From positions 1 through 64,000 of the forward strand of contig JBAMDO010000057.1 in NCBI GenBank assembly GCA_037074765.1: a DNA stretch of 64,000 nucleotides. Direction: 5' to 3'. This document shows positions 4,201 through 61,500 of this stretch, one piece after another. The position numbers were made by a program, and so were the translations under genes. Below the pieces are notes generated by a model. It saw only the letters and a list, made by a program, of their open reading frames with translations. It was not told the origin of the DNA and made no database searches. Every line of letters begins with the position of its first letter. The stretch's first letter is position 1. Origin of the DNA: Mansonella perstans (lineage: Eukaryota; Nematoda; Chromadorea; Rhabditida; Onchocercidae).

Positions 4201-7200
4201 TTCTATGTTTTTGCTAGCTTGCGCAAGAAATGGTTGCATCGGTGTATTAAACACATTTTTAAAAAAAAAAAAAAAAAAAACTTTTAAAATCCATTTCCAT
4301 TCAAAATTTGAATGAATTTTGTTCGTGCAAAATACTACGTAGAATAAGCAGTTTGATAATTATCACAGAAAAGTTGCATTTCAAATGTACCTGCTTATTG
4401 AAGTACTTTGAGAAATGATTTAATTTATCAACATAGGTCTACTAGTTGTTGCATTCAATTCGTTGTCTCATCGATATTTTAAAAATAAAGCATGAATGTT
4501 CACTTGTTACTATTTGCATTTATTTTAGCTGAATGCAGTCAAAGATAATGCAAGGAATCATAGAAATATAATTTTTCTTGCTTTGAAACCAGATATTTGA
4601 TTAAAGGATATCAGGAAAGTGTTTATAAAAATTTAAATATACGTTTGAAATTAAAGGTCACTCTTGTTTTACTTGACCCTTGTTCTCGTAAATGATGGGC
4701 ATTATACAGGCATTACTAGTTTATAAAGGTTGCTTACATAACAACTAAAATATGAATTCCTGAAATAAATATAAGTTATGGAAAGGAATTATGAATTATA
4801 ATATTGTTACCTAAAATTATCGCGGTGCACATTTTCAGAAAGTACAGAAATTCTGGGAGAGAAATGACTAAGACATAGTCCAGGACAGCAAAATCTATTA
4901 AGTGCTTTGCTTCATTACTTTTCAGGATTTGCATAATGGAGCACACCGAGCCTCTGACAATTGTCTTGATGTTTTATGTGGTGAAATACCTGAAAATTCA
5001 CGTTTTATGTCAAGATGGAAAAGCCTTTCTGTTCCTGCGGTTTGTTAAGAATTTTGCATAATAAAATGATAGTATATCGATTATCGAGTTTGAATTATGG
5101 ATACGAATTTATTCAATTCTTGCCTATAAGACTCAACTGAATTAAGAAAGGGAAGCTGGTGTTTGGGTTTACCATAAGTTGTTTATGTGGATTTAGAATG
5201 CGGAAATAGGTTAAAGAGTAAAAGCATAGAAAACTCACGAATTTTTTTTCAGCAAGATCATAAGTGTGCTTTGATTTTCCCGAAGAATAAGAATATAAAA
5301 AACTGCAACTGATATTGGGAGATTGAGTAAAAAATTTCATTTTTCTGTAAATCGTGCAGTAAGCATTTTGGTCATCATTTTTATTTGTTAAGAGACAAAA
5401 TATTAATCTGAGTTTAGGTTGCTTCAATCTCTGAAAACGATGTGTCGACACGGGATACTAGATTCTCATCGAAATATAGCCGCGACAGTCAAGTTAGTTT
5501 TACAAGCGTTATAGCATCATAACAATCCATTATAATTTTTTCTCAAGTCAGAAATATTGTTTATTATTTTAGTTTTGATATTCCAAGAATTAATTTTCTG
5601 CTTAGAGAATTGCATGTCGAATAGTTGGTAAAATAAGATTATTTTTTGTGCTGGAAAATGGAGATTTGTTATTCAAATGTTTTCAGGCTGAAATATTACT
5701 GACGGCATCAAAGCATAAAAAAACACCACTGAATGAATCGCATGATTATGTGCCGTTAATCGATCAATCATTTAACCTTACAGATTCATCTGCAGATAGC
5801 AAAAAGAATTTGAATGATTCTGTTCCAGAGGTTAGTGATTACATATCTAAGAAATCTCTTTTGATTAAAAGTGTACTTAGATGTATTATATAGATTTGAT
5901 TTCTAGGGCGATGTAACTCTTTCGCTGGAGTTGTACACAACACCGAGAAATGATGCAAATGAAGAGGTGGGGAATAAATTTATAGCTTTAAGTTTGAATG
6001 ACACCAGTATTTTTAAGGTTCCAATTTTCTAAGAACATGATTAGAGAGGAATTCTTCTTTTGACAATTTTCTAAAAATTTAGAGAAAATTGAGGGGCACA
6101 GAACTGTCTTATACGGTGCTGTCAGATGTCAACCACACGTTAGGATGTGATTTCAACCAAACGCAAATTAACTGTGAGGAATATTATAAATACAAAACAA
6201 ATGCTGCGCAGAAGACAAAGGTCGTAAGCTATATGTTACGTGTTCACAATAAGAATAACATTAATGAAAAGAAAATAAAAATTTGCTGTTTCTATGCACT
6301 GTGTTTTTAAGGAGTTTCAATACTTTGTTTTATCTACGAGCTTTGTATATTTTAATGCACACTGGTGCACTCACTTTGCTTACCTCATTTAAACAAAGTT
6401 TTTTTTTTGAATGACAACTGTATATTTTTCATTGCTTGAATATTTTAGTTAAATTCAAGTTTTTTGCAAACATTTTTCTGTGCTTTTCATCATAAGACTT
6501 CATCAATTCTCCAGGAATTGTCCAAAAGCGATTTGAAAAAGTACTGTTTTGTTACGCAGCATACTGTTATTTATCCAGTAAGTCATTTGGAAATGCAGTG
6601 TTTCCCGAACAGCATTTGCCAATTCAAATACGAAACAAAAGATGGGAAAAGTGAGGAAAAGCAAACAAACATTTTACGCAGAGAACAGTATTCGCTAACT
6701 AAGGATCCTATAGTGACACAGTCACCAAAGGTGAATTTGTTGTGTTTCCAAATCCAGTGGTATTTTCGAGATCAGATATTTGTCGCTTCCTTTAATCCTT
6801 TGTTTCAGGATACAAATGAAGCAGCATCTATGCTGAACATAATGCTGCAGCGACGTTTAAATAATGGTGGAAGCCAGAATGACTCTATCACTCAGGAACG
6901 ATTAAATAGTTTTTATTCGACACCACCCAGCGACCCGAAATCAGCATCACAAAATATGAATTTTCGAAGTCCCACAGTCTGTCTTTTTAGAAGTTGAACT
7001 TTATCTGTCATCTTTATTTCACTTGGTATAAGAATACAGTACATCGCATTTATGAGTTGTTAATTACTAGGTTAGACAACTAATTATCTTTCCTCTTTTT
7101 CAGAGAACTAACGAATTAAGTGAATTTATTGATGGAAGGAATGTTTCATTACCATATGAGGTCGTTTTTCAGCTCTACCTGAGAGTAGTGAACTTTTCTT

Positions 7201-10200
7201 GCCACTTCAGCGCATTGCTTTTCTCATTTTAGTGGCACAAATAAAGCATAGAATTATAAGTATGGTAAGTTATGTAATTATTTAAGATGGACAAAAAGGC
7301 AACAATGGTTGTGAACGAGCAACATAAATATATAGTCCAAGAACCGAAAGAGCCTTTTTTGAAGCAACATTATGAAAATAGCTTTGATAAGAAATTTCAA
7401 AGATCTAACAGCGATGGCCGCTCAACAATTCGGTATGGTTTGTAGTGATAACAATTCATCGTTTTGATGAGAGAGCACGGACAATTCTTGTTAGTAATGC
7501 TGGTATTTATGAGGATATCTTGTACAAAGAAATTTTACGTTTTCGAAAAAAACTAGATTTATAGTTCCCTCACTACTTCCTTTTTGCAAGAATTTGTTGG
7601 TTGGATTTTTTATTTTCATGAGTTTTTAATAAATCTCCATAGTAAAAAAACAAACTGACTTTGGTAGCGATCATATATGCATGTTTCTAATTTAATGTAA
7701 TTTTTTAAATCATATTGCGATTGTTCATGATCTGGTAAGGAACACTTTTGTCAAAATACCATTTAATAAAATTTTGACTAGGAAAAAAAAATACACTGAA
7801 ACATTAATCGAAGCCGTTCGTTTTATTCCAATCACCTTTCATCAAAAAATAATTGACACTTATTATGATAGCTATGTGGAAATATTTCTGTAAATCTTTG
7901 TGTTAAAATTAAAAACAGGTCAGTGTACGACGATTTTCCTTGATCTTGCCTCGACATTTCACCGATACATGAAATCACATATTGATGTGCTTAATATATA
8001 TTATAGTGACCGTTTGCCACGAGGAATGACACGTAAGCTGGCATCATTCTTTGAAACAATGAGTGATGCAGCAAAAGTAGAGATGTTGCGAGAAATGAAT
8101 CATTTGAAACGGCGCGGCAAGTCAGTTCCGCCGAAAATTGTTAGTAAAACCTGTCACCAAGAAACTAAAGCCAATAAGGAACTTTTCCATGGTTTGTTTC
8201 ATCTGCTGCCTTTAGAAGTTCAGTCCTAAACACTTGGCGACCTTTTTTAATCTACAAAACAGTTAATTTTAACTATTAATTCGAAGAAATTGGAACTCAT
8301 TTAGGTCTCACAGTTCCATGCAAAAGAAGTGGTGGGTTTGAAGGACATTATGTAAGAGACAAGGTTGTCGAGGCACGCAGCGTACGCAGCATTGTGAATC
8401 GGTTGGATTTTATACCTTTATTTTCTTTCTTTTATTAATATTTTTTTGCTTTCTGTATAAACATTTTTAGCTTTGAATCAGTGTTGGATCCAAATATGTG
8501 TCGAAATTCACCGGCAGCAGTTCAGAATGATATAACACCACAAAGACCAAAGAATCGGAAACGATACTCGCAGTACGTTACGAGCATGTTACAAACAGTT
8601 CCGGGTATTACTAATTACAGAAGCAGTAAAAATGTTTTTGCTGTTGACTCGAACTACAACGTCTGTAATACTGAAAGGTCATCTTTACCGCGATCAGATG
8701 ATTGGGGTGAGTGCTCAGATCACGAAACTCTCTCTCTTAATTTACCGTACGACAGTAAGAGCAACGCGAACGTTTGGGATCAACAACAATACGAATTAGG
8801 ATTACGCAAGGTCTTCATTTTTTTCATTCATTATTTTTGTTTAACAGAAGAGCAAATTGACTTTTCCAGTGTCGACGTAATAAAAAGTAATAAAATGTTT
8901 AGAAATTCAAATTCTTTGCTGTTTGAAATTTATTTTTCAGGGAATAACCAGTCTGAAGCGTTACGACAGCAGTTACAACAGGATGACGAATGTAGAGTAA
9001 TTTCATCATTTATCTAAATGAATAAACGAAGATAATCATTTAATCAGAAATCCATGTTTTTTTTCTTATCACCTCTGTCACTAAATACTGCAGAAGCGAA
9101 AAAAGTAAATCAGTCGCTGGTTAACCCAAAAAAAAAAAAAAAAAAAAAAACATTGAATATAAATCGCAGAGTGTTGATGTTTGTATCGAAGCTTAGTAAT
9201 AAAGGATAAGTTTATTGCGGATTCATGATGTAATATATCACTTCAGCAAGAACTATTTGAGATTTTAAAGTGTTTCCGTATTTGCACATACACATTACTT
9301 AAACTTGCTATATTGATTATAAGATCTGTTGCAGATCCTCAGTCAAATGAATAACACTGCAGAAGTACAACTGAGCTATCGTAAGGATACTGCAACTAAT
9401 GGTTCACAAAAACGTATGCGATTTTTGCTGTTTACTTTCATCTTCATCTTGAAGATAGTGTCGTATATTATATATTTTTGTAGATATTTATGAAGAAAGA
9501 CCTAATAGCGAAGTTGTGGATCATGTTGCTGAGGTAGAAAAGGCCTTTGATTTCGTCAACAAGGTTTGCTTTGATTATCGTTGGTATTATAGTTAATTCT
9601 CTGTAATCTAACAGCTTAAATCTTAAACAGATGTAATTTAGGCTGAATCACAAGCAACTCATGGCCGACAGTATTCGCTAGAATCTTTGGAGAAATCTTC
9701 ATTATCACATGCAAAAACTTGCTATTCGGTTAGTGCCATTTTTTATGATAACTTTCGCATTTATTAAAACTAAGCATTGTAGGAATGTAAAATGTTGAAT
9801 TTGTTATTGTAAATTATTGTACATTCTAAAATATTCATAAACATTACTTTTTGTTGTGCATGTATTGAATTGCTTACAGCATAAATTACCAAATGATGAC
9901 GTTCCTGTTCGTTTCTCTTCTGCTGTTAACTCGCCACCGCCTTCCGCGAATCAACGAATGGCAACATATGAACACAAAGATCTGGTTGTAATTTAATTAT
10001 GGTATTTAGAAACTATTTCTGAAGGTGATTCCTTCAGGGTTTAGATTAAAGGCTGTTTAGCCTCCATTTTTTGTTTATCCTCCAAATCTTAAATTCTGTT
10101 GTGATTTTCGTGGATGTGATTTGTGAATAATAGATTTGCTTCTCCACGCTGATTGCTTCATAAGATTGAAATTTCCTAAAGTTTATTTAATAGCGATTGC

Positions 10201-39107: not shown

Positions 39108-42100
39108 TCAAGACTCGTCCACATCTAGCGAACTTCGACATGTATGAAAACTATCACTTCCATGACTTCGATGCGAAAGAATAGAGTACGCTCGCCTACG
39201 AAAATCATTTCTCATAATCTTTTCGAGCTCACCTGGTGCTTGCTCATTTTTGAATTGTCCTGGTTGGAAGATCAGTTCTTCTTGAATAGAGTCTACTTGG
39301 CTGAAAATATTTAAATAATAAGCAAATTCATCAGTAAACAGCTGCTCAGATGAACTGCGGTCTTTTATTCCGTCACTTAACGAGCTGTGAACAGTGAAAT
39401 TTCACCTAAAATAATGTCCGTAATTGTAATCAATGCAAACTATTCATCGGATAAATTACATAAAAATTAATTTATAAGCAAAATGAATAAAGATCAACGA
39501 TGTGCCTTTTTTCTGCAGTATTTTGATTGTTTCTTAAGCCATTTCGAGCACTGACTGACGCGGTAATATCTGAAATTCGCGCCTGTCGAGCGAGAAAACG
39601 CTGCCGTTGAAGCTGAATGAAAATATTCGTCGGAATATCAGGTATCACATAGGCGACCATAGCTTTGACCATTGCTACTAAATGCTTAAAAATATTCATA
39701 AGCAGTACATTGTGACAGTAATGGACTCGAACTCATTTACATTTAAAAGGTACATCAAACTGAAAATTATATCAGTTTCATACTGAATACCATAAATTGT
39801 GCAAAGAAACTTGAAAGGACGATTGCGGAAGCAGCACTAAAATGGAGTATTGAAACACTTAAAATAAAAGCTACTATAAATATATGTAAAAATGTATTTT
39901 TCAAATAAGTTCATTCAAAAATATTCCTAACTTCCTTCTTAAATATTAGACAAATGTTTGCAAAACCCATACTATTAACATATGTTTTTAAAGAATAATG
40001 AAATTTTAAATCTTTTCATGAAAGAGAATTTTTCCTTGCAGCAAGAAGAGCGAAGCATTCGCGCTATTATTATTTTTGCTCCATCACACAATATAAATTA
40101 CTAATTCCAAGAGCAATCATTGTAGCTTCTACTTTGAAACCAATGTTTTCGAAAATTATATATTGGCTCAAATCAATTATTAGAACTGTGCATTTGTTAC
40201 GCGAAATGAACTTGCCTCGAAAATGAGGACAAATGCCAAGCGAAAAGTAAAAACAATCCACCACTGCATGGTGAAACCATAATCATCATCGCAGTTTGAA
40301 GACGGAGCGATAGTACAAGGTAGATTTCTATAGTCACGAAATCTGATAAATTGTAAAGAAATTAGAAAAGATGTAATTTCTGTAAAGAAAAAGAAAATTT
40401 TTCTGTAAAGAAAAAGAAACTAATAATAGCAAAACAAATAAAAGTCCAGGCAGGACTAACAAGATCAACAAAATGCCGTTTCTTTATTTATGCTACATGT
40501 CCATCAAGCTTATGGTAGTGGCGCTTATATTATCAAAGGGTAATTCTCTTTCATTTTTTTCAAAAACTTTGAAAACAAAAAGAAATACACTAGCTTTATT
40601 TCATTTTTGATTTCCTAAAAATAAATATATAAGCTCATATTTTTTCAAATGATCAGTGAATAGAAAGCATCAGTCATAAGAAGAAATGCTATTTCAATTT
40701 TATGGAGTGACTTACCTACAAACAGTAATGTTATCATTCTTGAATTCGCTCCATTTCACAAAAATCCCTGATGAATCATAAAAGGAGAGTGAATTGTTCA
40801 CATATCCGTACAAATTATCATGCATATACACAAACCGATACACAAAACGTGGTATGAAGTCGCTTGTGAATGCTATGATACAAGCCTTAAAACAGAAAAT
40901 TGCGTTGTAAAAAAAACAAACGAACTGTTGCCTATTCATTTCATTATTTAGATATCGCAGTATTAATCTCAACTGAATAAGGCATTAAACCAATATTTTC
41001 CAGATAATAAGTTTTGGATTTTTGGTTGAGACCTTTATTAAAAATGATAATGAAACTTACATTAACAACGACCGCTGCTTTGCTAATCATGTTCAAAATA
41101 GGCAACCAAATACCAATATCACGTGCTCGTTCCGGCACAGGACGTCGAGTGGCAACAATATATTTGTATGCATCAACCCGAATTTCAAGAATATTATTCA
41201 TCAAAGCGAAAAGTGGTGCAAGTGGAAAAGCCGACACAAAAAGAGTTACAAAGCCAAATTGCATTACTGAAAAAACTTCGTTCTGTCTAAGAAAAAAATA
41301 TTCAAAAAGGTGCTGATTCCTTTTATTAGAATAATTCAACAAAAGATTCATTTTTCTCTACAAAAATAGGACTGAAAAAAGTCAGAAAAATTTTTTTACG
41401 AATCAGGTACAGGCGAGATCAGAATTACAGTGCTTTTCATTTAGAGCGTGTTCGGATCGTTTTCTTTCTAAAGAGAACTATATTACAAGAAAAGAGAGAT
41501 CATTTTGACTTCTAATTCTAATTAAAAACCAACCCATTTCCAGGTATTCATCAAATAAGAATTGTTCTTGTGTAGGGTTGAGTATATAATCTTGCTCCCA
41601 TCTAGCTATTCCATCCTTTCTAGTCATCAATTCATAATTTGTCCTTTCGTTTCGTTGCTTTTTAGTTTCCAATAATCGCAGCGAGCGTAACCAAGTCATA
41701 AGCACTCTGAAAACCAATTAACTTTATAAATGAAAAGTGAGAAATGTTTGCTAAAAACCAAACTTTTGTTTCAAACTGATTTTGAAAATCTCCTTATAAA
41801 ATTATGTAAAAGCCAAAAAAATACTGCTTACGGCCAAGCAAATTCCACAAGGCCATTCCAGAACTGTTTACCACACATGATGATTGCCAGCTGTATTACA
41901 AGCTCGACCATACAACCAGCTGGATCACATTCTTCTGGCCGAAGACCGAAATAATGTTTTTCAGGTAAGCCTGACAAACTACAAAAGTCTTCTTATAATG
42001 GTTAAAATTAATTATATACTATTTGCTATATCTACTACACATCAGCATAGGCATAAAGAAAACGCGATTAAATCGATGAGAAGTGGAAAAAATATTTGCT

Positions 42101-45100
42101 ATCCTTCCAGACAAGTTCAAGTTTAGATGCTGACAAAATTCATAATGACAGAAAGCTAAGATAGGTTTACCTAGATTTAACTTCGAAATATAACACCCCT
42201 CGTAAAATAAGAACTGTAGAATTATCCAATTATCTAGTTAAAAAGAAGCTAAGCTTTCAACGTCAACATGCCGTTTCTGAACAAAATACTTGCGACAAAA
42301 TAAAGGAAAATGACTATCGAATTAAGTTGAATGAGAACTTCTAAACGATCTGAGAATAATTCAAGTAGGAAAAAATCTATTTAAAAATCAAAATTGCGAT
42401 AGTTTGTCCGTTTACAATAAAGAAAATTAGGTTAAAAGAAGCGTGGATGAATTTGAAATGCGTAAATGACACAAAAGATTGCTTGACAGTTATTATCGCT
42501 ACGATTAATTAATCTCACAAAGAAAACGATAAAGAGGAGAAATAGTAAGGCGAATAAATTTATGAACAGTCCTAATTAAGCAGAAAAAATTATTTCTGAT
42601 CATAATATACGCCAATCAAAGGTACTCGAAAATGAATAAATGAAAATATCTTCATGAAATAAAAAGTGAACAAAATGGCACCGTACGTACGATGCAGTTT
42701 GTTTTGCTTATATGGTAATTCAACATTTAAATCCAACAATTTCAAAACATACTTGCCCTTTACGAAAGCAATGTAAAAGATGGATGAGTAGTAGTTGATA
42801 AACTGGAATAAATAAACTTTAAATGTGTAACTGTTATCGAATTCAAGTTGCGTCCTCGGGCATTCCCAATCTGTTAATTTTAGCGCCAGATAAGAATAAA
42901 ACTAAAAACATAAAGCATGTCAGGTTAGCTAATAAAACTTTGACAAACAATAGCTTCATTTTTCCTTCTTAGTATCTCTCTCAAGTTAGTATAACAATTT
43001 AGAAAAATATGAATGCTATGAATGCTATATGAAATTTTGAAATCTTTGTTCGGCATTAATGTCCTTGCGCTAATACAATATTTTCTTAGCTTACATTAAG
43101 AATTTTAAACATGCGCTGAAAGAAAAGATTCACAAAAACTGCTAAGAGTTTTGACTAAATCAATAAAATTGTTAAACATACGTAGCTCATTGCTAAAATA
43201 ACAACTAAATTCAATGTGGCAGCAGTAGTGAATGTGAGAAGATTTGCATATGGTTTCATTTTATCCACTCGATAAAGAACTTGAGAAAATACGATTCTAT
43301 AAATTATAATACCAGTAACAAATGCTATCACGAGAAAGAGCTGCAAAAAGAAATAAGTGATCACATGCTTGAAAAAAATTGAAAAAAACGTTGCATCATT
43401 TTGCTCAATGTAATCCATCGTAATAACAGTTGATATACGGAAAAAAATAAACAACTTGAATTCCAAAAAAAAAAATCACACTTAGCATTTTCTAAAAATA
43501 ATGAAACAACTTCAGCAGATTATCCAAACTATTAAAAAAACTCACAAAGAACAGAACAGTTATGCCGGATCCGACTAAATGTAGAAATCTATAACTATAT
43601 GCTAAATAAGGCTCCAGCTGCTGCGTAACCGGATTGATTCGCATTGTTTTCGCTTTTTTAACACGTAACTGGTATTCAGGTCTGACTGTTTCCTGAAACA
43701 AATAATTCAGTAAACTGAGCAAAAATCTGAATCTCTGTTTAGAAACACAAGTGAACAGATAGGAGCGATAAACGCAGTCAATCAACAGTTTTTGTTAAGA
43801 GATGAGAAAAAAGGAAATTAAAAAGGGAGTGCGGTATAACAAAAGAATAAGGAAAAGAAACCTCACAAAAATAAAAAAAAAAACTTCGCAAGAACCTCGT
43901 CAACTAAGTGGTATCATTAGAACAATTATGTCGATTATTGCTAACCAAATTTGGCGAACTGAAAAAACACTCCAGACTTATCAGGAGTGGTCTTGTGCCC
44001 CACAACAATAATGCATTAATACACTTTGAGTCAAGGACTTACAAAAACAGACCTATAGAGAATTTACAATTTTTCCACAATGTAAATATTCACTGCAGTC
44101 TTTTTTAAAAAAAAAAATGTACAAAACCTCGTCAACTTCAAAATCAAGCAAGCCCCACTTCCAAGCCACTTCAGCGTGATATCTTTTCCATCCTTCCAGA
44201 AACAGCGTTGCAAATATACTCATTATGGCAGAAAATATAACGGTCGAAGTATTATCAAACACATATGACAACTGCAACCCAACAATAAGAAACAAATAAA
44301 TTACAAAAAGGACCACTGAGTATCAACGATATAAATGCAGTAAAATGTAGGCAGAAAATAAATAAAAAATGAATGCAAAAACAGTAAAGTACATTTCCAA
44401 GAAATACGAACAGAAAGGAAACAGCAAGGAATGTACTGTTTTGCTTCAACTGGTTTGAAAAACTTTTTGAATTATCATTCTTAAAACAGTCACATACCTT
44501 TGCATAAATACAACTAGAATTAAGTCGAGTATAATCACAATACTTATCACATGTCGGACATAATATCACTTCAGCACCAATTCCATCACTACCACAAATG
44601 TCATTACTGGAAAAAAAACATAATTCCAGAATTTAGAAAAGTTTAAATGTTAAAATTCAAAATCTGGAATTTAGTCAAGCTGTAAAAAGTTATTTAATAA
44701 ATCACGAAATGTTCTAAAACATCGGATTCAAAATCAAGAGTCTCTAAACTTGTTGTCTATTAACTTCGTTCTTCTGTTTCATATTGCTTACCACCTCTTC
44801 AACTTCTAGTAAGTCTTCAAATCTATTTCTTAATAACTTTCTCAAAAATATCAAGATAACTTCCCTAGGCATTAAAATTAAATTACAAGTACTCCACAAT
44901 TTCACGTCCTCGTCGACATTAATATTAACTTTTAAGTAGTTATAAAAGATTTAATTAGTATTCCCAATTAAATTTTAAGTATTTCCTGCGTTGATGTGCA
45001 AAAAAAACAACGTCGAAATTTGGTGAAAAGATTAAAGCGTATAAATGACTAAAAGCCGTAAAAAAAGTAAAAACTGAATAAAAATATATCGCTACTTATA

Positions 45101-48100
45101 GAGAAATAAAAGTAAACCTCGGTATGTCCTCTGAAATTGTTGATAATCCATAAGCGAAACATAAAACGCCGATGATAGAAGCAATTATTAAAATTTTCGT
45201 ATAGTAACCTAACCAGACAAAATACCATCCAATTTTCGAGCCAAAATATTTCCTATAAACAATGTTCCAACAGATTTTCCTGTTGGCAGAACGTTTAGAA
45301 GCAAATCCGAAATTTCACACAGGATTTCATCAATCCACTATAAACTCTGCGCTAGTAACCTTTATCATTAAATTTAGCTAGAAACGTAAAAAAGATAAAT
45401 CACATTCAAAAGTGGCTTTGATTAATAAAATACATCAATCAATTTGCATCATTGAATCAACAATAGCAGTATCATAAGCTCAGTCTTTATCGCTATGGAA
45501 ATTTAAGAAATCCAGATAAAATGAATTTCCCAATAAATGGGAGAAAGAGAAGATGAGAAAAAAAAAGCTCACTTTATTAAAGAAAGTGGCTGATACTTGT
45601 AAACGTTTGCAATACGAGCCCAATGCCAGTACAAAAATTCACGATCGGTACTTTTTGTAGCATTATACTTATTCCAACCACAGTTCTACAAACAAAAAAC
45701 AAAAGAAATGACAAAAAATTACTACTGTATAAAGGACACACTGAAATATCGATAAAAGATGACGAATAAAAAACCCAGCCATCCAATTATTTATAATAGA
45801 GTAATAAGTAATGAAAGTTTACAATAAGACTAATTAAAAAAACCAGTCAAATGAGACCACAATGCTGCGTGCCCAAATTTCGTAAAAATATTTTAATCTG
45901 ATATGTAGATGTTACCTCATGCAGAGGAAAAGCAGACGTATATGTACCATTCTTGATCAAACGTTGTATGCCAACGCGATATCCTTCAGCTTCGTGCGTG
46001 TCATATCTAGTCCGAATTAACAAGTCATATACTAGCCGACTTCGTTCCGAATCGTCAAAAAATGTATCTGGGTTTTCATGACCAACATAACTATAAAAGA
46101 AAACACAAATAAATCCTACAGTTTCATGTAAATACCAAAATGATATAATTATATAGATTACGAAAACGATGATACTGCTGTCTTCGTTACTAAATCACAT
46201 ATTTATAGATCTGTATACCTAGCCCAGCCATTTTCGACAACATATCTTGATTCTTTTCATAAATCCATGTCTGGTTTGGTGCGAATGCTACCGCTTGTCA
46301 GGTTTACAAATTAAAACAAAAAGTTAATAAAAAGAAATACCATTCCAAATAAGCTGTCACAAAGGGAGCTGTAAAATAATTTGGCTCTTTTAATCGTTCA
46401 TTTGTCTTCTCATCAAATGTCAAGAAACGAAATCTTTTCATAAATTTGTCCAAAATCCCTTCTAAAACAGTTCGTTCCTGAAATACAACAACCAATATTT
46501 TGCATCATTCATTGTAAATCTTTCACAGAAGAGTTATAAACGTGGTTTTCCCTATTGCATGGATATTAATGGTTTAACGGGGAATAAAATATAAAAGCTT
46601 AGTGACATTACTAACTTCTACAACTTTAAGTTACAAGAAAGCAGTTGTATACTGCTCATATTTCTTAATAAAATCATACTTCGTGAAATAGCTAATTTCA
46701 ACATAACGAAAATAAACTAACTTTCACATCGCTTTGAAGTACTGGCATTTTCAAGCAAAGACTTTCAGCTTGTTTCATCAGCAAAAAAAATGGTGCATGA
46801 ACTAATACAAAATGAATCCCTTTGCAATACTGAAAACAATATGTTTCAGGAATTGCTGCAATTACAAGAATCGTTTTTCTGTAAAATCTTGTTCACTTAT
46901 CTGACATCAAAAACTTCTTGAGTAAAAACTTCCCAGTAAATGAAGCTTAACTCTTCCCTATGACTAAAAATGCAGCCCTACATTGTTTCAGATTCATTTA
47001 ATGTCAAATTAAACATTTAAACTTCCAACCAAGGAAATATGATGTGAAATCTTCCCAAATAATACTGAGTGAAAGTCCGAAATTCCAGAACAAGAATAAA
47101 ATTATTCCTTTGGTTGATCAATAAGAATAAACTCAGAAATTATAAGAGTGTCTACCAATAAATTCAATTATTTACTGTCAATATTAACTAATTTTAGCAG
47201 CATTTTTGACTTGCCAAAAATACTTAGAGCTATAAAACTTGTATTACGAAACCATACCTTCCCTTCAACATGTTCTAATTCCAATCCTAGCTGCTTTAAA
47301 TTTGTTTCGTATTGCAGGCGTTTATTTATTTTTTTCTCCACTCTTGATCTTGCATAACAACTCTATAACAATACCATATGAGATGTATTGATTTTCCCAA
47401 AACTGATAGTTTTCGAAAAAAGTGTTCTCATTATCTTGATCCAAACAGTGTGATATTGTTGGTTCAGCGCAATATACAATATCAGGCATGCCTGCTGAAC
47501 TATGCTGCACATAGTAAATTCGAAAATATATCAATGAGTTAAGCATTAGAAAATATTATCTTAAGAAAATGAAAAAAAATTAAGTACCAAATTATTAAAA
47601 AAATAATTTTAAAGTAATATTTACATCTTCTTTATCGTTTATACTGGATTCTTCTTCAATTACTCCATCGCATTCATAGGTAAGAACGTAATCAATTTTC
47701 CTTTTACCGTCTTTAAAATATATGCTCTGAAAATTATTTCGCTGAGATTTCGAAATTTCGGACATCTCCTGAAAAAGGGATTCAAGAATAGAAAACTGAT
47801 CGGACGACTAATCAAAACAGTTCTAAAAGAATTACATAAAAATATTTTTTGTCAATAGAAGCCAAACAATGTCCGCTCTGCTCATCCTTCATTTGTTTTC
47901 TAGCCAGAACTAATGTATAAAAATACTTCCTGCTATTTAAGTCCGATTATAAATTCTCAACCTTCCTATTCATATTTCGAGAAGCAAAATCTCCACCTGC
48001 CTTTCTCCATCATTAATATCCATTACTAGTGATTCACACTCAAAACAATCAATACGCTTCAAGCGATGCCTTCGATTACTGCCAAGCGACGTTCCTATAA

Positions 48101-49289: not shown

Positions 49290-50635
49290 CGTGATTCATG
49301 TTCTAAATGTAAGCAAAGATTGACTAAATGATCAAAAAAGTATAAAACACTCGCCAAAAATCAAATAGAAAATCAACTGATCGCGATTAAATATATAAGG
49401 CTGAAATTAAGTTAAGAATTAATAAAAAGAAATATTTCAAATTAGAAATTAAAAATGAAATTATATAATATTAACAATGGAATTATATACATATTAACAA
49501 TAAAATTATATGAACGAATAATTAGATGAGAGTTTGAACGGTGGATTCATTCACCGTAAGAACAATGATAGCAATAAAACAAATAAAATGCAATAATTAT
49601 GTAAATGAAAAAATATATTAATGAATAAATTACAAAGAAACTATCTACGAACATTAATCTATTCTATTCCATTTTCTGCTTCAATTCATTCTAACTTTAT
49701 ATTGTTTTTCATTTCTTTTTGATTAAATTTTTCAATTAATTTTTAATCAATCTAAGCCAATGCATAGAAGAAAATCACAAATAAGTCGACGTGCATACTA
49801 CAAGAAATAAGCATTTATATCTATATTACTATTCTTATCTCAATTTCTTGAATTTCCATCTTTTACCATTTAGATTTAATGTGAACTACGTGAAGCAAAG
49901 GTTGTTAATAAAACGTGCACTCAATCTAATATCTTTTTATCTTCTATATTTTAGCATATTTTGAGATGTAAGCATCAGAAGGATGACATCAGAAGGAGCA
50001 TCAGAAAGATCTGTTTCCCAACATTCACACTACTATCCTCAGATTCTCGCACCCATATTGCATATATGCAACCTGAATTTTTTAATTTGCACAATCGAAG
50101 CCAATGTTCTGTTGGTGCGAAACCATTATGCAAATTGGATGATTCAAAACGTGATTTGGATGTTTAAAAATATTTATTGCACGTGTAACGTGAGGAGCAT
50201 TTAATTTACGCCAATATATAGAAGTGATAGATTGACGGAATATTTCTGACAATTGATTGAAGGAGCAATTCAAAGAAATGATAATTTTTATTGATTTATT
50301 CAATTACAAGTGGAATGCAGAAAGAGAGATATGTTCGTTTGGTTGTCACATTGATTCAAAACTTTCACTTGATTGATCTAGACTAACTGAAAGCAATGGT
50401 CATTAAAAGTTTTAGATCGTTTCTATTGGTCATTAGTTAATATCTTGCAAGGGCTATTACAGGACAGTATGGTACTTCGTAATAATCATTTGAATATGAA
50501 AGTGTTAATTGGCATTGCAATATATGTAAATGTCTGTTTTCATTACCATTTCTTTCTTCTATAATATTCGTTTTTTTTTTTTTTTTTTTTTTTTTTTTGA
50601 TTTTAAAGTAAAATCAAGTAAAAATGGATAATTAA
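49290..50635. other. Intergenic: anoctamin 5' flank and micro-exon gene 3' flank
   Basis: No exon seen on either strand. Contains a T28 run at 50571-50598, which reads as A28 on the minus strand about 40 bases past the micro-exon gene stop. Frames at 49961-50303 overlap on both strands and lack splice support. Confidence 0.45.
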
Positions 50636-53600
50636 TTAACCAGAATTTGAATAAACATCCTGATCCATTACAAATGAATTTGTTAGTGCTGTGTTATATT
50701 CTGTTGAAATTCCTGATACCATCGATGAATCACTTTTAACTACAATAATCATTACCAGAAATGGTTTATGTTTTTGAAGTGTTGTTGAAATGAAATTTAT
50801 GTCTAAATTACACAAATATACTCTTCACAATACATTAAATATATCTTAAAATTTTAGCAAATGAATTGCTATTTGCAATAAGCTTAGTTGAATGCTTTCA
50901 TTTATTCTCGAAAATGTTTTGATAGAATAAATTAAAGCGCAAAAATTAAGCAAACATACTTTCAATCAGTTTCTGATCATAATGATATTCAGGAATAGAA
51001 TTCTCATTGATACCTGAAATATGCAAAAAGGAACAAAATAACTGAATTGGATTAACAACTCTTACAACTGTAATATATGTTTCGATTTTATTTCATTAAT
51101 AAAAATGTTTAATTGTTGCAAAATAAACAAAGATAGATGATACTATTTGAGTAAAACTTACTTTTATCCATAAATGTAAGTAATTGTTCTATGTTATCAA
51201 GATGCTGCACTGGCATTATAGTTTTGCTTACAGAAACCGAATCTTGAATTATTTATTTGATTATATATAAGAATTAAATTTTAGAAATGATATTTCAAAA
51301 AATGAATTTCATATGATTTACCATTATCACTCGACGTAAATAACGATAATTCATCCTCGCTCGTTTCGTTCCCATTAACTTATTAGTTGAAATTATTAAA
51401 ATAGTATTTGTGCAAAAAAGAATTAGTATTTATTTAGTTAGTTCTAGAAATTTTGAAAGATATTTAAGTAGTAAAAACTTAATAAAAAATTTTAAAAAGC
51501 GAGTAAAAAGAATGAACTGAAAAAGCATTAAAAAAGCCATTAAAAAAGCTTACTTTCTTGAAGAAATTCTAGAGAATCACTAATGTACTTGCAACGAAAT
51601 TTTGGTGGGCGTCCTAAATTTGAAACTATTTTGAATTTAATGATCTTGTTCACAAAACATAACTTATACGATAACATTAAGCTACGGAAATTAAATAAAT
51701 CTCACATGTATGTTGAAAAAGTTTACTTCAATAAATTCTGAAAAAACTCTAATGCACAAAATCCTACGTGTATAAATATCGCTCGAAATAGTGTTGTACG
51801 TATTAGTGTCGGAGATTTCATCGATACTGCACGGTATTTCCTGCTCTGTAGAATATATGATCTGATCTTTTTTATTTCTTTGAAAATACTTTATTTCACT
51901 TCATATTTTTTTTCTAAGGTAATCTCTCCAACATATGGTGTGAATATGACGATTGCTACGCTATTGTTATATAACTAAGTGTTGTAGATGTTTCAGTACA
52001 AATTTCTTGAAATACATCATTGAAAAAAAGTTTGAAAGATGAATTAACATTGAAAAAAAAGCAATTTTTATGACGATAATTGTTATCACTATTCACTGAC
52101 TAATTTACTTGGAAATTTATCATCATTTCATCCTCATAACAAATCATAATTACTTGAAGATTTATCGTCATTCCGTTCTCATAACAAATCATAATTTTTG
52201 GCTTTAAACAATTAGGCATTATAACATTTGAAAATTACTTTAAGGCCGATATGATGAATAATTTAGTGAATAATTTGTTTCATTTACTATATCATTAATA
52301 TCTTGATGATGAGAGCAGTTTTTAAAAAGTACCAAATGCACTAACTTTTTTTATACCAACTTTTCAAATGTTTCTTTATTTCTTTATTTTCCAGAGAAAA
52401 GACATTTATGTTCCTGTTGAAGTTTCATGACTTTTTCTACCTTTTCCTCACTTTTATAAAAGTAAGTTTCAAATAAAACTCCACTATTATGGGAGCAAAT
52501 TTCAGATCTCAATTCCACCAGATTGTCAAATAATCTTACCTGCACTTAGCTCTTCATCGAGGCTTTTTAAATCATCTGTAATACCGACATTTTGTTAGCT
52601 CATGCTTTTGATCATGTGTAAATCTCATATCTTGTCATTCACCTTTTATATAAAGGAAAAACTGCAAATTGATTGTAGTTTTAAATTATTTACTTAATTT
52701 GGCGATTGCACGTTCGCTCTCATATTCAATTTCAACATCTACTTCAGATTTCGGTTCTGTGTAATCAGAATAGATTAAATGCGTCTCACGACCTGAAATT
52801 ACGCCCATACCGAATCTATACGTATTGTCTTTAAATTGTTGCAATTCTAATGTAATACTTAATTCTTTTTGAATCAACATAAATTTCAAATCAGTTGATA
52901 TTTATCTATTAAAAGCATTTTTTTCAATATGAAAACACGTGTCGAATAATTTTAGTTACGTGATTACAATCTTTTCAATATTAGAAAACCAATAAGCATA
53001 AATTTCCAGCGTAATGATATTTGGCAAGCATTTAATGAAAAATATATGAAATGCGACGAACTAAATAAGCAGACTATACCTTCATTTCGAATTTTCCAAA
53101 GTGCCGGATTGCCTAAAATTGAACAGAACTTGAAAAATTTAACTTGGATGTTCAATGGTTGAAAGGTGAGCAAACTTTTATAAAAAAGACAAAAATATCC
53201 ACCAAATATAGAGCACCATGGTCGTCCATCATACTCAACATCAGTCTCTGATGGAGGTTCATCATATTCAGAATAAATTAAACGAACTTCGCGGCCTAAA
53301 GAAACTTAGCTATTTTTGAAAACTTTATGCAAATTCTTGTTTTTATCGTATACTTTGTAATTGCTATTCTAAATTACATAGATCTTCATCAAAGCATTTT
53401 ATCAATCCAATATAACTTGGTGAAAATATATATATTGAAAAGGTTCTTAGCTGATCTCTTGAGACAGACTGGCAATACACGTCAATCAATTCCGGTTCAA
53501 GCCAAAATTATTAAAATGCAACATAATATGCTGGACAAACCATCAGTTTTTTGGTCGTAAAATTTTTTTTGGTCGCTCATTTCAACACTCGTTTCGGAAG

Positions 53601-54414
53601 ATGGCTCATCGTAATCGGAATATACGAGGCATACTTCCCTACCACCTTAAATTTTGTTGATTAAGCAAATAAGTGTTTCCTGCAGTTTTCTGGTTGTCGC
53701 CGATCATATATTGAATTTAAACATTGCTAGTTGTCGAAGTGTTTTCTAAACTCGATTTCTAATTATTGTTTTCAAAGCACTGTCACTACTAACACGGGTG
53801 CTTTATAACAATTTTTTCTGTACCACTTTCTTTTCTTTATTGTAAGTCTCAAAAGAATAATATATTCGAAAATATGATGATTCCACTTTGAATGATTAGC
53901 AATTTGTTTCAAATGGAAAATCACGATTTTCAATTTGAGAGAAAATTCCTGAGACAAGCTATTAATAAATTAAGATTTCAATTAAAAAACTGATTACATC
54001 GTGGTGAACAGTAATCGTTCGACCCATGTGGCGCATGATTGTAGTAAGAATTAATTTCATCAGCTGCTGCAAATTATTGCGTACTTTATGAAAAAATATA
54101 AAAAATTATCAGTACGAAATATATTAAAACGATGAATTTTTTACTCACTCGATTTTGAACTTTGCCACCAATATTGTTTGGCTCCTTCGATTACTTCAAC
54201 ATCAGTTTCCGATGGATCACTGTCGTATTCTGAATATATCAAATGGACGCCTCGACCTAAAAATTTTTCGCCAGCATGTTTTCTAAAAAAAATTATCTTT
54301 CCTAGGAAACTGAAAGCACCACTGGTGGTAAATGTAACATCGTCATAATAGATGATCGCGGGTAACATTTTCATGGTCATTCACACCTTCCTCATCCACC
54401 AGTGGTGAGTTCAT
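50636..54414 (-). CDS. Micro-exon gene: novel 323-residue acidic protein built from symmetric phase-1 exons
   Basis: I do not recognise the family. Fourteen exons: 54414-54387 (ATG), 54256-54149, 54066-53998, 53645-53541, 53295-53203, 53112-53080, 52792-52694, 52575-52540, 51845-51768, 51613-51554, 51378-51322, 51209-51162, 51013-50960, 50739-50636 (TAA). Lengths 28, 108, 69, 105, 93, 33, 99, 36, 78, 60, 57, 48, 54 and 104 nt total 972 = 324 codons. All 12 internal exons are multiples of three and every junction is phase 1, so any skipping keeps frame. Exons 2, 4, 5 and 7 each encode a copy of GRExxLIYSxYxEPxSE plus xDVE, so they arose by exon duplication. The other exons are Ser/Asp/Glu/Asn-rich. 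No signal peptide, membrane span or Cys pattern appears; the first exon is MNSPLVDEE. The repeated Tyr motif (YDEP) resembles phosphotyrosine SH2 ligands, which is inference only. It is probably intracellular. It shares a 194-bp upstream region with the plus-strand gene at 54609. Confidence 0.75.
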
Positions 54415-54608: not shown

Positions 54609-55139
54609 ATGGCTGTTCTCACAATTATCATAATTATTGCCATTGTTGCTATTTTCTATTTCTTCTTTTATAAAAAACAGGTTGTTTTTTAGTCAGGAAA
54701 CTGAAATCTATTCCTTTTTTGTGAGACTGGAACATATTAAAGGGAATATGAGAAGCAATTATTTCCAAGTAGAAGTTTTTTTAGGAGAATGCATCAAGAA
54801 ATGTCGAAGGGAGAGTGGCATCACCAGGGTTTAGACCTGATTCCAATTTTCAAGGCAGTACTGCAACTGTAGAGGTTGGTCTCTTAGTTTTTTTTCCGGA
54901 ATTCGTGAAATTCACTGCCTTGGCTTGTTTTGAATTTCAATTTCAAATGAAAAAGAAGCATCAAACGAGAATAAAAAACAATCATCAAGCTGTTGCATAT
55001 CAGTTTAGTTCAGTTTTACTCCAGAATCTTTTATTCAGAATTTATTGGAAATAGGTTTACTTTTATGGCCTTTCAGAACTCAAAGTACTTAACTCCAGCA
55101 ATGACACGAGGACGTTCCATTCATATTAAACCAGCTTAA
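54609..55139 (+). CDS. 74-residue single-pass membrane protein, unknown function
   Basis: Three phase-0 exons: 54609-54680, 54785-54874 and 55077-55139 (TAA). The N-terminus MAVLTIIIIIAIVAIFYFFF followed by YKKQ is a clear membrane anchor with positive charges on its cytosolic side, so the remaining 50 residues probably face the cytosol (N-out, C-in). That tail (SPGFRPDSNFQ..., then NSKYLTPAMTRGRSIHI) is Ser/Asn/Arg-rich without a domain. Splice sites are good (CAG|GTTGTT, TTTTTTAG, GAG|GTTGGT, TTTCAG), and AATAAA follows about 50 nt after the stop. It is easy to miss because each exon is short. I do not recognise it. An uncleaved signal-anchor or a cleaved signal peptide is also possible, but no cleavage site is evident. 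Confidence 0.6.
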
Positions 55140-55193: not shown

Positions 55194-55539
55194 TAGTGTT
55201 GTACAGAGGAAGAAAAACTCTCAAAACACAGATTCAAAAATATTGAAGCCCATATTGTTATTCGTCGGTGATTGGGCCCGATTGCTAAAAATTAACTTTT
55301 TTAATGATTTGAAAAATTCCTTTCATTAATAAGCCGTATATTTTATCATCGAAGAATTAATTTAAATGGTAAAGTTTTGTGTATAGATTAAGTTCGCTCA
55401 ACTTAATTGTTTAAACACTGATCTAAATTCTCGTAATGATAAGCTTGTTAGTGTCATCAGCTGTAAACATTGCAAAGCACTTTTCAAATTTTAAATTCAT
55501 TTCCCAAGTAGGTTAAAAGAAAACGTGAAAATTATTTAC

Positions 55540-58500
55540 CTTAGTGGACAAATTTTTTTGCAACAGCACAGTACTCCATCGAGTGTCTTTGCATGAGAAT
55601 ACGTCACATTATGTATACCATTACAAATATATGATCGAGATAGCCACAACAGAGTGTGTTTGCAGAAATTTAGCACAACTAATTCTGGTTTTTTCTTTAC
55701 CAATCTTGGTATTTCATCGATACATCCACGCTTAAAATTTTGACATTCAGAGGAATAGATGAAAGCAGGAGATTTTCACCAAGACCGATCCAAAGATCTA
55801 ACTGACCGAAAGTATTAGAAATTATAAAGAAGACTTGACTTAATTAATTAATATAAGTGTAGAGCAAAATAAAGCAAGGATAAAGCGTCAACAACTTTTT
55901 CCATCTCAAAAAGAGTTGAATTGTCGTGATTTGTTATTTGTTTTATATAAATTTTTGTAAAATGTAACTACTTTAGATTGTTAATTGTAATTAATGGAAC
56001 CACATTTCAGCAACTGACTCGTGTAATAAGACTTTCAACGATTATGAAATCTCCAAATTCGAATTTCTCATTATTTCGTTTTTTGTAAGGATTAATTTAG
56101 CCGTTCATCTATGAAGTTCATTTGTAAAAAAAACTAAACTTACTTCCTTTTCACCGTCAAAAGAATGAAAATCGAAGCATCCCAAATTTGTTTTACAATT
56201 TATTCGATGTAAATCATCCGTAACATAACATTTAGAGTAACCAGACGGTGCTCTGTCTCTTGAATAATGTTGCAATGCAAATGGTACTAAATTTTCAATT
56301 AAATTCTTGAAATCTGAAAAAAAAACTTAATCAATAAGCTATAAAATGGTTTATATCTGCTTAATTATCTTTTTTAAATTGAACTGAAGTTTTGATGGAA
56401 ATGTTAGTTAGTTTAAAAGTGGAATCAGTGGACCGTTGCATGGCCTAATTGATTTCGATTGACATCGCTGTACAAATGTATCACTTTCATGATGACTAAG
56501 CGTCTGAAAACGTTTAGAATTTTGAGTTTCAGCGGCTATTTTTATTGATGGTAATGCATATATACCAAAGGAGATGTTTTCATTGCTAATTTTAACAAAA
56601 GTAACACAAATCGGAGTACTGCTTGTTGCCTGAAATTAAAACAATTCCATTTATGCTTGGTTCTGATAAAAAAGAACTGATAAATAAAATTATGTATTTA
56701 AAAATAAAAAAAATAAAAACTTTTCCTGAAAATTTTTTCATGGTAATTCTGGATAAGATCAGGTTAGCAGTAGCCAATGAATAATGGCAATTAATGATTG
56801 TGAGTATAACGTGAAAAGAATAAATCTCATACGAAGTTTTTCCTCAAAATTTCAGTTCAATTTTTGGAAAAGCTGAATTCAATACTTTGATTACTAATCA
56901 GTAACTATTATTATTATATGATGTTTGCAGGATGTATTGTGAGAAAACTCAAGCGTTTCCACTGAAATTTGATTGACATCTTAAACTTGCTCAAGATATT
57001 CGGCATTTTAATGGAATTAAAACTTACCAATTTTCTGATCCTAATACCAGCAAAACTGACTTCCTGTTTAGTTGAATGTAAATTAATTGTTAATGGCCCT
57101 TTCTCATCACGGGCTTCATAGCAAGTTGGCCTAATAAAAGTATCTTTGTACTTTTTGAAATAATAGGGCATATTCTCATCGCAAGTCTCCTGCAAAATTA
57201 CTAAAGGATAAATTGAAAATAAAAAAGAATTAAATCAAATTTTATTGGAATGAATGAAAATGGATCAAAATGTTTTAGAATATTTCTTCCATTCAAATGG
57301 ACAAAATCCTTGTTATAATGATCTATTTATTGGTTGGGAAGTGATGAGCGACTGGATGTTACCGTAATATTAGATTTATTTTGGGAAGCTTCAAGAATTC
57401 GAAAAAAGACTATCAAGTGTTACCGGATGTGCTCAAAATGAGTAACATCAAGATTAGCTACTACACAAAGCAAAAACGATTTTGACCTGTTGCAGGAATG
57501 TGTTTTTTGTTAAAGTACATTATTTCTTGATTTTTTTGAATATTTCTTAACTAAAAAGTCCCCAGCTGTTGAAAATTTGCAAAAGACTTTATTTTAAAAT
57601 TTCAATTACTTTGTTACTGATAAATAAAATTTAGATTTCGTACAATTTTCTTTTTTTTTGGTAAATGACTGGCAAATGAATCCATCGAAAAACTGAGATT
57701 TGTCTTTCGCTGTTTGCATTCACATTTGAAAAATTGATAGGTGATAGGTTGATGTGTATAATCTTTTCGATGACAATTTTGTGGTCGCAGTGGGAACGCA
57801 TTCAATATCTCACAAACCATATTTCTATGTCAAAAAATCTTTAATTTTTGCTATTAATTTCAATTGATCAAAATTTCGGAAACTTACAGCAAAAATTAAT
57901 TCCAATTTAATGGTAGCTTTTTAAGGTCTTTTATAATGCTGCATGAAGTGCACAATCATGTCGCAATAAACAGCAAATAGTTTGTAAAGGCCAGCAGTTT
58001 CAAGTTCCGAGAATTCTCCATCCACTCATACTTTCAGTAAAATAGTAGCCCTTATGTGGAGCTTATAAATCGGACTTACTGGTCAGGGAATTCTTCACGC
58101 ATCAACCGATAAGTCATTTCTGGCTGATAAGAAACTCCAGGAATCAAGAGAATTTCTTGTTCGAAATCAAAATCAAATGATCGCCAACATACTGCAAAGA
58201 TAAAATGTATTCATGTCGCAAGCAGTGTTTTTTGGAAACTTTATTATTCGTGTTTTTTTGAAAAGTTTAGCGGCATCTGATATTCACTAAGTTTCTGTCT
58301 ATCTTTTTAAATAGCTGTTGGACTTACTTTTTGATAAGTCGCTCTTACTGCTCTTCGTAAAAAATTGCGTCAAATACGCTACGGCCTTTACGTGACATTC
58401 AAACACAACACTAAAATGTTTTTTCATGTCAGTTTCGCTAGTGAGTTTTAACACTTTTATTTCATAGAAATTACTGCAATTGTTGGTTGAATTTCCAATT

Positions 58501-61500
58501 GAAACTAGCGAAATTGAAGAAAGAAAATTAAAATTTTGTTGAAGGTTAAAGTTTGCTTGATGTGAGACAAACTTCAGATCTAAAATGCCTTATGTACAGA
58601 CACATCAAAAAGAATTCCTATTTAAACTTCAAATTTACTTCCGGACATTTGCAAAAAAGATACAATATGACAAAATCAAAATGATCCAACTTTTGCAAAT
58701 CCTCCAAATTTAGATCAATTTGATATTTGCTTTTGAAAAGATTGTTATTGCCCCAGTGATTACACAAATTTCCACGATTACAACAACATCGATATTGTGC
58801 TTCAATGCGAGATACGTATAATAAATTATTGAGACATTCCGGTCCAATTAGCTGACAAGAAACCCTTTCACTTGAACGACATGTGCTTTTCGTATCTGCT
58901 TTTGCAGCCAAGATTATACTAAAAGCATTTGAACTGTTATCTGTTTTTTATTTTTAATTATAACTGAAATGTAGTACACAAAAGACTTGACTGAAAATTG
59001 CACGAATTCGTGGGGATTTGATTGCCATAAAGTAATCCTGAAAATATTGGATAAACGCTTCCCACAAACTGATTTTTCTTGTGTCCTAATATAGAAGAAG
59101 GAATTATTTTATCAGAAATTAATACTAAATTTATCTTTGGCTGAAATTTTAGTCTCTTAAGCGCTGTCTGCACCAACAAATTTGGTGTCGATTTTTGAAG
59201 GCTTTTGAAGTTTGATGGAACATATTGCAGAACTTCAAGTAAGCCAGAAGCTCACTTTCATATTTATGAGACAAATGATCAATCATTGTCGATCTGAATT
59301 TAGAATAAATAGATTTGATCAATGACGTGGAGCATCCGAAAACAATTTACAACTGTGACAAGGGAGACGCTGTACTGACTGACGACAGTATAAAGATGGT
59401 GGTCGTAAGGTGAAAATTTTCTACCTTTCCGTTTGCCCTTGTTTAAATTTGATCCAAAAATCAGCGATACAATACTGAGTACGAAATGGTAAGTCTTTCC
59501 GTTTCAACCTATTCAGTTTCTTGGAAACTTCGATATCTCGAGTGCTATATACCATAAATCGGCCAACAGCACAGTGCCAAAGTGGATAATTATGAGTTAC
59601 CGGAAGTTTTTTCTGGTCATCTCGAAAAGTATATGGCATTCAATGAATATTGAACAATATTCATTTTTAACTAATATTTGCACTCAAATTAAAGTTGAAA
59701 TCAGATAAACATTATGTAGAATTTAACCATTTTGCACATCGCAATTTTTGTTCAGCTATTTTTCCTTTGCAAAATATCATTTTTTACTACAAAGTCGAAA
59801 GTGACAACGATGAAGAGATAAGAAAGAGGAATAAAATATAAGAAAATTTTGCACAAAGTAAAAACATATTCATTAATTAAAATCTACTCAATCAAAAGTC
59901 AGTACTGTGTGAGATGATTACTGTGAAAAAGGAGAGATGTAACATCTCTGCATTATAAATTGAGCAAAGCTTAGTTAGCACTGAATTTAGCTCTTGAAAT
60001 TGGTTTATCGTAGCAATTGTTGTGATGCTATCACTGATATCAGTACGGCTTACCATCTGTTTCAGATTTGCTGTAGATGAAGTCTCGATACGTCCAAGAG
60101 CTTGTTCGCGCACTATTTATATTTGGGTTCAATTCTTTAGCTAAAAGGGAATTGCGAATTTCGAAATTTGTTTCCCATATCTTACGATTTGCTCTTACAT
60201 TTCTCATCGATTTATTAGATATTGTATATGCACAAAGTTCGGGTCTCACATAACAGCAGCAGAGTACAAAGTATTCCCGTGCCGATGAGTATTGGATGCA
60301 TTCACCATCCGGAATTCGCGAAGCACTGTGTGGTGCACAAAAATGACCTCGTAATGCTAGGTTCACTAGTGAATTCTGGAAAAAAGTTTGCATCGGCGTT
60401 TACGAAAAGTTTTGAGGAAAGAACTATATTTGAAATTAGAAAAAGCTATAAGTATATAAGAAAATCAAGGCAAACTTCTTTTTCTGTTTAAAATGTATTT
60501 TATTAAATTAATGTATGTAAAAGGATGCAGTCTTATCGAAAGAAGTCGATTAGCTTCCTATCTTATCTAGACCAGATTTTGGCCATGGGAGTTTTAGAAA
60601 TGAATTTCGACACATCAAATCATACGCTCTTGGCTACTTTATTTAATTACGTTAACTAACATACATTTTCACGTTCTGATGACTGCTCTGTCAAGTCAAT
60701 TGAGTTCCAATGCATTGCACCAAAATGCACCTTTGCTGGAGTATTTACATCAAGCATAAACATACAAGACGTATCACTATGCTAAACATTGAATCGTTTT
60801 TATAAACGAATTCGAAATGCCAATATTCGATATTCGGTCAAAAAAATTCCATTGAGTCCCGTCATGCCCTAATTTTAATTCTTTTTCAAAATTATTTTGA
60901 GATTTGAAACTGAAGATCAGTTTACTTCTTTTTCACCATCAACATTAATGCAGTAGCCGGAATCCTCCGGAAATATTGTTTCTGCTGTGTCATCTGAATC
61001 TTTATGACTACGCCTGTAGAATTCCGTAGCAAGATCTTCGATTATTTCTTGATCCGTTTTGTTCTGCAGGATTCAAAACTGTTGCAAATAAGATTGCGCA
61101 TATTATGAGGAAAATTGCTTTGAAGAAAGAGGAACTATGTCACCAAAGTCTTATTCATGAACGAATATCCACTTTAACTATTTCATAGTGAAAATTAACA
61201 AATTCGCAAGATGATGTAAAAATAATAAAAATTTGTTATGAATTATCTACGTTTATTGTGATTTACCTCGTAATGTTCACACTGTTTACAACAATAATAT
61301 ATAACATCGACAAGAATTTTTTGTCGCTCTTCAGTTTTAGCTTCATTTTTTTTCACTTTCAAATCACTAAAACAATTTGTATCCAACTGTTACAATTCTT
61401 TGAAATTTATATATATAAATCAGGAAAAGTCGATTAGCAACCACTTCCAGTATGTATAGCAATCTTCTTGATGTTGTTGTAACCAACAATTGACATTTTT

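Follow-up and report, generated by a model that had tools for sequence, protein, structure and literature searches.

Does an unbroken series of phase-1 introns on the minus strand of a Mansonella perstans contig mark a genuine gene, and, if so, does that gene generate protein variants by dropping exons? The initial annotation had proposed a micro-exon gene here, of 14 exons and 323 residues, in which 12 internal exons of 33-108 nt were all multiples of three and split codons after the first base. The window analyzed is the initial 64 kb of contig C57, within an assembly of 75.7 Mb in 539 contigs. In this assembly, what we take to be the sequence of the SL1 nematode spliced leader has 266 exact occurrences, as compared to 0 for a reversed control, which identifies the DNA as nematode. 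Contig C147 carries from 259001 a series of TTAGGC clusters every ~290-355 bases, a telomere-like repeat array within a longer unit.

Genes were predicted with a purpose-built gene finder that combines a 3-periodic coding model with splice-site matrices, allows introns in any phase and was trained, with no phase constraint, on 264 kb of contig C57. Its initial settings gave too many exons and fused nearly everything; they were dropped and the per-exon cost was made higher. For the stretch 54600-50560, the gene finder predicts a minus-strand gene at 54414-50636 with 13 exons, 324 residues and 12 introns, every one of them in phase 1 (Table 1). As the circularity of self-training had to be removed, the gene finder was retrained with 49.0-56.5 kb left out, and the identical 13 exons were returned (score 21.7). 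Forbidding phase 1 on the minus strand of the same stretch makes the gene disappear, with full and leave-out training alike. The leave-out gene finder produced gene models in 0 of 200 simulated order-3 DNA sequences of equal length, and neither the plus strand of the region nor the reversed sequence yielded one. Intron number is governed by the per-exon cost (12 at -3 and -4, 11 at -5 and 4 at -6), and the phase is 1 throughout. When 258 tiles of 4 kb from both strands were parsed (137 models obtained), the gene was split into two overlapping partial models, 54414-52686 with six phase-1 introns and 53580-50346 with ten, the latter with ends that differ from those of the main model.

The main model places the start, the stop, the strand, the single frame and the uniform phase exactly where they had first been annotated. 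The counts are revised, from 14 exons and 323 residues to 13 and 324, and from 12 internal exons to 11, spanning 33-120 nt, all still phase 1-1 and multiples of three. Judged from the gene models, the gene is very probably real, whereas exons 10-13, like exon 1 and the exon ends in general, stand as model predictions. Exon 1 is the top-scoring phase-1 initial exon in 54.26-58.0 kb, and it is swapped for another exon in parses of longer stretches. Exon 5 has a possible shorter form, also in phase 1, that would end at 53203 (93 nt; donor 2.1 vs 3.5). A 57-nt segment at 51378-51322 is probably the extra internal exon of the earlier 14-exon model, a matching that is a guess, as that model came with no exon table; with content 3.6, donor 4.7 and acceptor -1.4 (background acceptors mean 5.1, SD 1.6), it is doubtful as an exon. 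Internal exons have a median of 78 nt, as compared to 123 nt on the contig (n=473). Beyond exon 13, AATAAA occurs on the minus strand at 50300 and 50292. A run of 28 A, also on the minus strand (50571-50598), begins 38 nt after the end of the stop codon.

Table 1. Predicted exons of the phase-1 gene, in order of transcription (window coordinates).
Feature	Coordinates	Strand	Source	Sequence	Remarks
Exon 1, initial	54387..54414	-	GHMM	MNSPLVDEE + 1 base	boundary least certain of all
Exon 2, motif copy A1	54149..54256	-	GHMM	RGVHLIYSEYDSDPSETDVE...	motif profile E 3.4e-15
Exon 3, 69 nt, phase 1-1	53998..54066	-	GHMM		donor weak (1.9)
Exon 4, motif copy A2	53541..53645	-	GHMM	GREVCLVYSDYDEPSSETSVE...	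motif profile E 4.9e-15
Exon 5, motif copy A3	53176..53295	-	GHMM	REVRLIYSEYDEPPSETDVE...	motif profile E 2.4e-15
Exon 6, 33 nt, phase 1-1	53080..53112	-	GHMM		
Exon 7, motif copy A4	52694..52792	-	GHMM	RETHLIYSDYTEPKSEVDVE...	motif profile E 1.1e-15
Exon 8, 36 nt, phase 1-1	52540..52575	-	GHMM		donor 7.0
Exon 9, 78 nt, phase 1-1	51768..51845	-	GHMM		
Exon 10, 60 nt, phase 1-1	51554..51613	-	GHMM		lost when 61500-50560 is parsed
Possible extra exon, 57 nt	51322..51378	-		NGNETSEDELSLFTSSDN	outside gene-finder model; open in phase 1-1
Exon 11, 81 nt, phase 1-1	51162..51242	-	GHMM		acceptor weak (2.6)
Exon 12, 54 nt, phase 1-1	50960..51013	-	GHMM		coding score low (0.5), splice sites good
Exon 13, terminal	50636..50739	-	GHMM	...VYSNSG-stop	coding score low (1.0)

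Four of the exons (2, 4, 5 and 7), all phase 1-1, encode a 21-residue motif, roughly GREVxLIYSxYDEPxSETDVE, with the pattern GR[EG][VT]xL[IV]YS[DE]Y[DT]xxxSE[TV][DS]VE. Against a profile built from those same exons they score E 1.1e-15 to 4.9e-15, and no fifth copy was found in the window, where the next best of 2864 open segments reaches E 3.5. In each of the six pairings of these exons, the score exceeds that of 300 of 300 shuffles. Pooled over the six pairs of the four sequences, which are not independent, silent differences are near saturation (pS 0.84) as compared to a pN of 0.29. Differences by codon position are 40/31/82, so that third positions hold 82 of 153; no comparable contrast between pS and pN appears in the other two reading frames of the copies. 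Identity between copies is 0.54-0.67, vs 0.28-0.37 in the 60 nt upstream. Silent saturation combined with constrained amino-acid sites indicates that the copies are old and that their protein sequence has been kept, and this protein-level constraint in turn argues that the motif exons are translated. That phase symmetry permits exon duplication, as had been supposed, is borne out by these four homologous phase 1-1 exons in series. Homology among the remaining exons is not credible (best shuffle fraction 0.04 in 60 pairs, excluding motif-motif pairs). Searches of the 75.7-Mb assembly, in which the best candidates were scored, returned four matches to a composite motif query, these being the four copies themselves, and five matches to the 3' half of the gene, all at its own locus. 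Bacterial and archaeal contigs gave 12 matches to the pattern, 0 of them confirmed.

The motif exons bear directly on whether the first annotation had simply joined up chance open segments, as short exons are easily invented in A+T-rich DNA. The same exons were predicted under leave-out training without a phase constraint, the controls were empty, and the four motif exons combine silent-site saturation with protein conservation, all of which leaves chance assembly scarcely credible. The extent of the gene is a separate matter. Parses of longer stretches fuse the phase-1 gene with upstream cysteine-rich exons, replacing exon 1, so that the exons in Table 1 could be the 3' tail of a larger minus-strand gene with cysteine-rich modules at 55.5-61 kb. 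The gene finder, however, likewise joins the phase-1 exons to those of a downstream anoctamin gene: a parse of the whole contig also fuses them with downstream exons as far as 38085. Adjoining genes on this contig tend to be fused by the gene finder, but these parses make the 5' boundary tentative. An in-frame stop just past 55539 can end the last upstream exon, a possible divergent plus-strand gene (54609-55139) sits between the two parts, and the local stretch alone gives a complete gene from 54414; we therefore regard a larger gene as unlikely. A division into two or more unrelated genes, with the motif exons of the 5' half separate from exons 9-13 of the 3' half, is more improbable still. 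The longest intron (694 nt) does fall between exons 8 and 9, and credible homology between the halves was not found, but phase 1 continues across this intron, where the gene finder places no start exon.

The neighbors themselves are as follows. The predicted cysteine-rich exon series lies on the minus strand at 55539-61063; some of its exons end CCC...C and resemble, by eye, three-finger/Ly6-type modules, and Pfam gave no match to pieces of the series (four pieces at E 1, two at E 0.01). The plus-strand candidate at 54609-55139 is a possible small three-exon gene, divergent from the phase-1 gene, with phase-0 introns by eye and a start, MAVLTIIIIIIAIVAIFYFFFYKKQ, that forms a membrane span; it is not called by the gene finder, and the Pfam rows of its hand-joined product all fall under curated cut-offs. 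Downstream, the anoctamin gene occupies 40947-46194 of the window on the minus strand (PF16178, E 3.8e-17; PF04547, E 3.1e-33).

How unusual the uniform phase is can be gauged from the leave-out set: it comprises 21 models from the two strands, of which several are fusions, and its 494 introns fall in phases 0, 1 and 2 in the proportions 233/149/112 (47%, 30% and 23%). By arithmetic from these counts, twelve successive phase-1 introns have p ~6e-7 if introns are independent, an assumption that does not hold because four of the exons are duplicates. The longest phase-1 run elsewhere in the set is seven introns, reached twice, both times in one model at 161.9-177.1 kb of contig C57 with exons that we take to be LDL-receptor-A-like. 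Fourteen successive phase-0 introns occur in a predicted plus-strand gene at 991-7432 of the window, presumably anillin-like, so that long one-phase runs are unusual and not unique; this gene serves as a contrast case on the same contig. The phase-1 run is thus far above chance for independent introns, and a one-phase parallel exists within 264 kb. Among the 4-kb tiles, the 14 longest models listed (10-14 introns) are all mixed in phase. The longest single-phase model is that of the phase-1 gene (10 introns), followed by one of eight phase-0 introns in the anillin-like gene. Apart from the partial models of the phase-1 gene, single-phase models of at least four introns comprise two that overlap each other, with eight phase-0 introns, one with five phase-0 introns, and a further overlapping pair with four and five phase-1 introns. 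Within the LDL-receptor-A-like region, the minus strand at 166.2-166.8 kb holds four near-identical tandem units (VNELAQSQLCPFVTSSER...) in phase 1-1, in a model of presumed LDL-receptor-A-like and fibrinogen-like exons. Three of the units measure 69 nt and the fourth runs into a longer exon; they may reflect exons duplicated recently, a satellite or an artefact of assembly.

On the gene models, free dropping of exons from the phase-1 gene would be possible in principle. Among the 78 ways of joining two exons, 76 create no stop, the two exceptions being exon 3 to exon 9 and exon 3 to exon 10. Because of these joins, 2024 of the 2048 subsets of the 11 internal exons are free of a new stop; if the doubtful 57-nt exon is counted, the figure is 4048 of 4096. 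The first annotation, which had all 4,096 subsets staying in frame, is therefore correct as to frame and 99% correct as to stops. This skippability follows from the uniform phase, and it is thus no evidence that skipping occurs.

A micro-exon-gene-like generator, making many protein forms by combinatorial skipping, would accord with the run of 12 phase-1 introns out of 12, with the open joins and subsets, and with some weak splice sites (the donors of exon 3, 1.9, and exon 7, 2.4, and the acceptor of exon 11, 2.6). As a set, however, the splice sites are ordinary: the 12 donors average 4.4 and the 12 acceptors 4.7, as compared to 4.2 for 498 donors at other loci and 5.1 for the corresponding acceptors. 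Nine of the 11 internal exons exceed 36 nt, the two at or below that length comparing with 9.3% of the contig's 473. A scan of 54.26-58.0 kb for an ATG exon with a hydrophobic leader (12-residue hydropathy above 2) and a phase-1 donor scoring above 1.5 found none, and exon 1, itself uncertain, is hydrophilic. The repeated motif exon is under purifying selection at the protein level, conserved rather than diversified, whereas the reverse would be expected of a diversifying antigen. The geometry first described thus survives (phase-1 symmetry, one frame, duplication, frame kept), and membership of the micro-exon genes is not supported. We consider a variant generator of this kind improbable. We think equally little of its selective form, in which the uniform layout would be kept by selection, skipping would vary the linkers and the number of docking motifs (from none to four), and the resulting valency switch would have arisen convergently with fluke micro-exon genes. 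Should isoforms exist, the locus would offer a compact test case of whether single-phase runs persist because they allow skipping or simply result from exon duplication; should there be none, it would caution against inferring variant generation from a uniform phase.

The predicted 324-residue protein has a pI of 4.3, a GRAVY of -0.79 and 24 tyrosines, and a charge-hydropathy rule classes it as disordered. It has no hydrophobic stretch of membrane-span strength (19-residue hydropathy maximum 0.65). In Pfam, the four motif exons gave no row at E 0.01 and the whole model a single row at E 3.1; a PDB search with an earlier, hand-joined version of 328 residues also gave a single row, at E 0.14. 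The tyrosine motif reads YDEP in two of the four copies, YTEP in one and YDSD in one. Combined with the single locus and the duplicated exons, these predicted properties favor, with fair likelihood, a single-copy nematode gene for an acidic, disordered protein whose four tyrosine motifs arose by symmetric-exon duplication and may act as a multivalent docking scaffold.

A phase 1-1 exon bearing the motif was thus duplicated to four copies, and between these lie linker exons, likewise phase 1-1, for which no kinship was detected. The predicted product is an acidic, largely disordered protein of ~324 residues, with leader and membrane span undetected. On the scaffold reading, it would offer one binding site per motif. 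The sites would presumably be read at their tyrosines; docking at tyrosine is the most tentative step, possible but doubtful, and it draws by analogy on the resemblance of YDEP and YTEP to what we take to be binding sites of Crk/Nck-type SH2 adaptors. Uniform phase would then be mainly a by-product of assembling a disordered protein with repeats out of symmetric exons that can be duplicated, and it would leave scope for dropping motif copies to tune valency.

Several known systems share parts of this layout. Schistosome micro-exon genes carry most of their coding sequence in symmetric exons of at most 36 nt, their 5' exon encodes a signal peptide, and exon skipping makes their transcripts vary. 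The phase-1 gene is like them in its run of symmetric one-phase exons, skippable without a frame shift: all 11 internal exons are multiples of three and all 12 introns share one phase. It differs in its longer exons (median 78 nt, range 33-120, with two of 11 at 33-36 nt), in its conserved repeat and in the leader, no signal-peptide 5' exon having been found in 54.26-58.0 kb (exon 1 being uncertain). The bicycle genes of gall-forming aphids combine a leader with a long series of phase-2 exons, each very short. The worm gene likewise has numerous short exons in one phase; its phase is 1, it has an internal repeat, neither a leader nor a second genome copy was found, and it does not fit the bicycle description. 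Extracellular modules with phase 1-1 exons, such as the LDL-receptor-A-like model above, also show phase 1-1 runs and tandem exon duplicates, whereas the phase-1 gene has no cysteine-rich module, had no leader found, and is acidic and predicted to be disordered. The substrate domain of p130Cas belongs to a scaffold with repeated YxxP motifs; in Cas-like docking scaffolds, SH2 adaptors bind tyrosine motifs once these are phosphorylated. Although Pfam finds no SH3 or other domain in the worm gene and one of its copies reads YDSD, the two are alike in carrying repeated tyrosine motifs (two YDEP and one YTEP in the worm gene) within an acidic disordered context.
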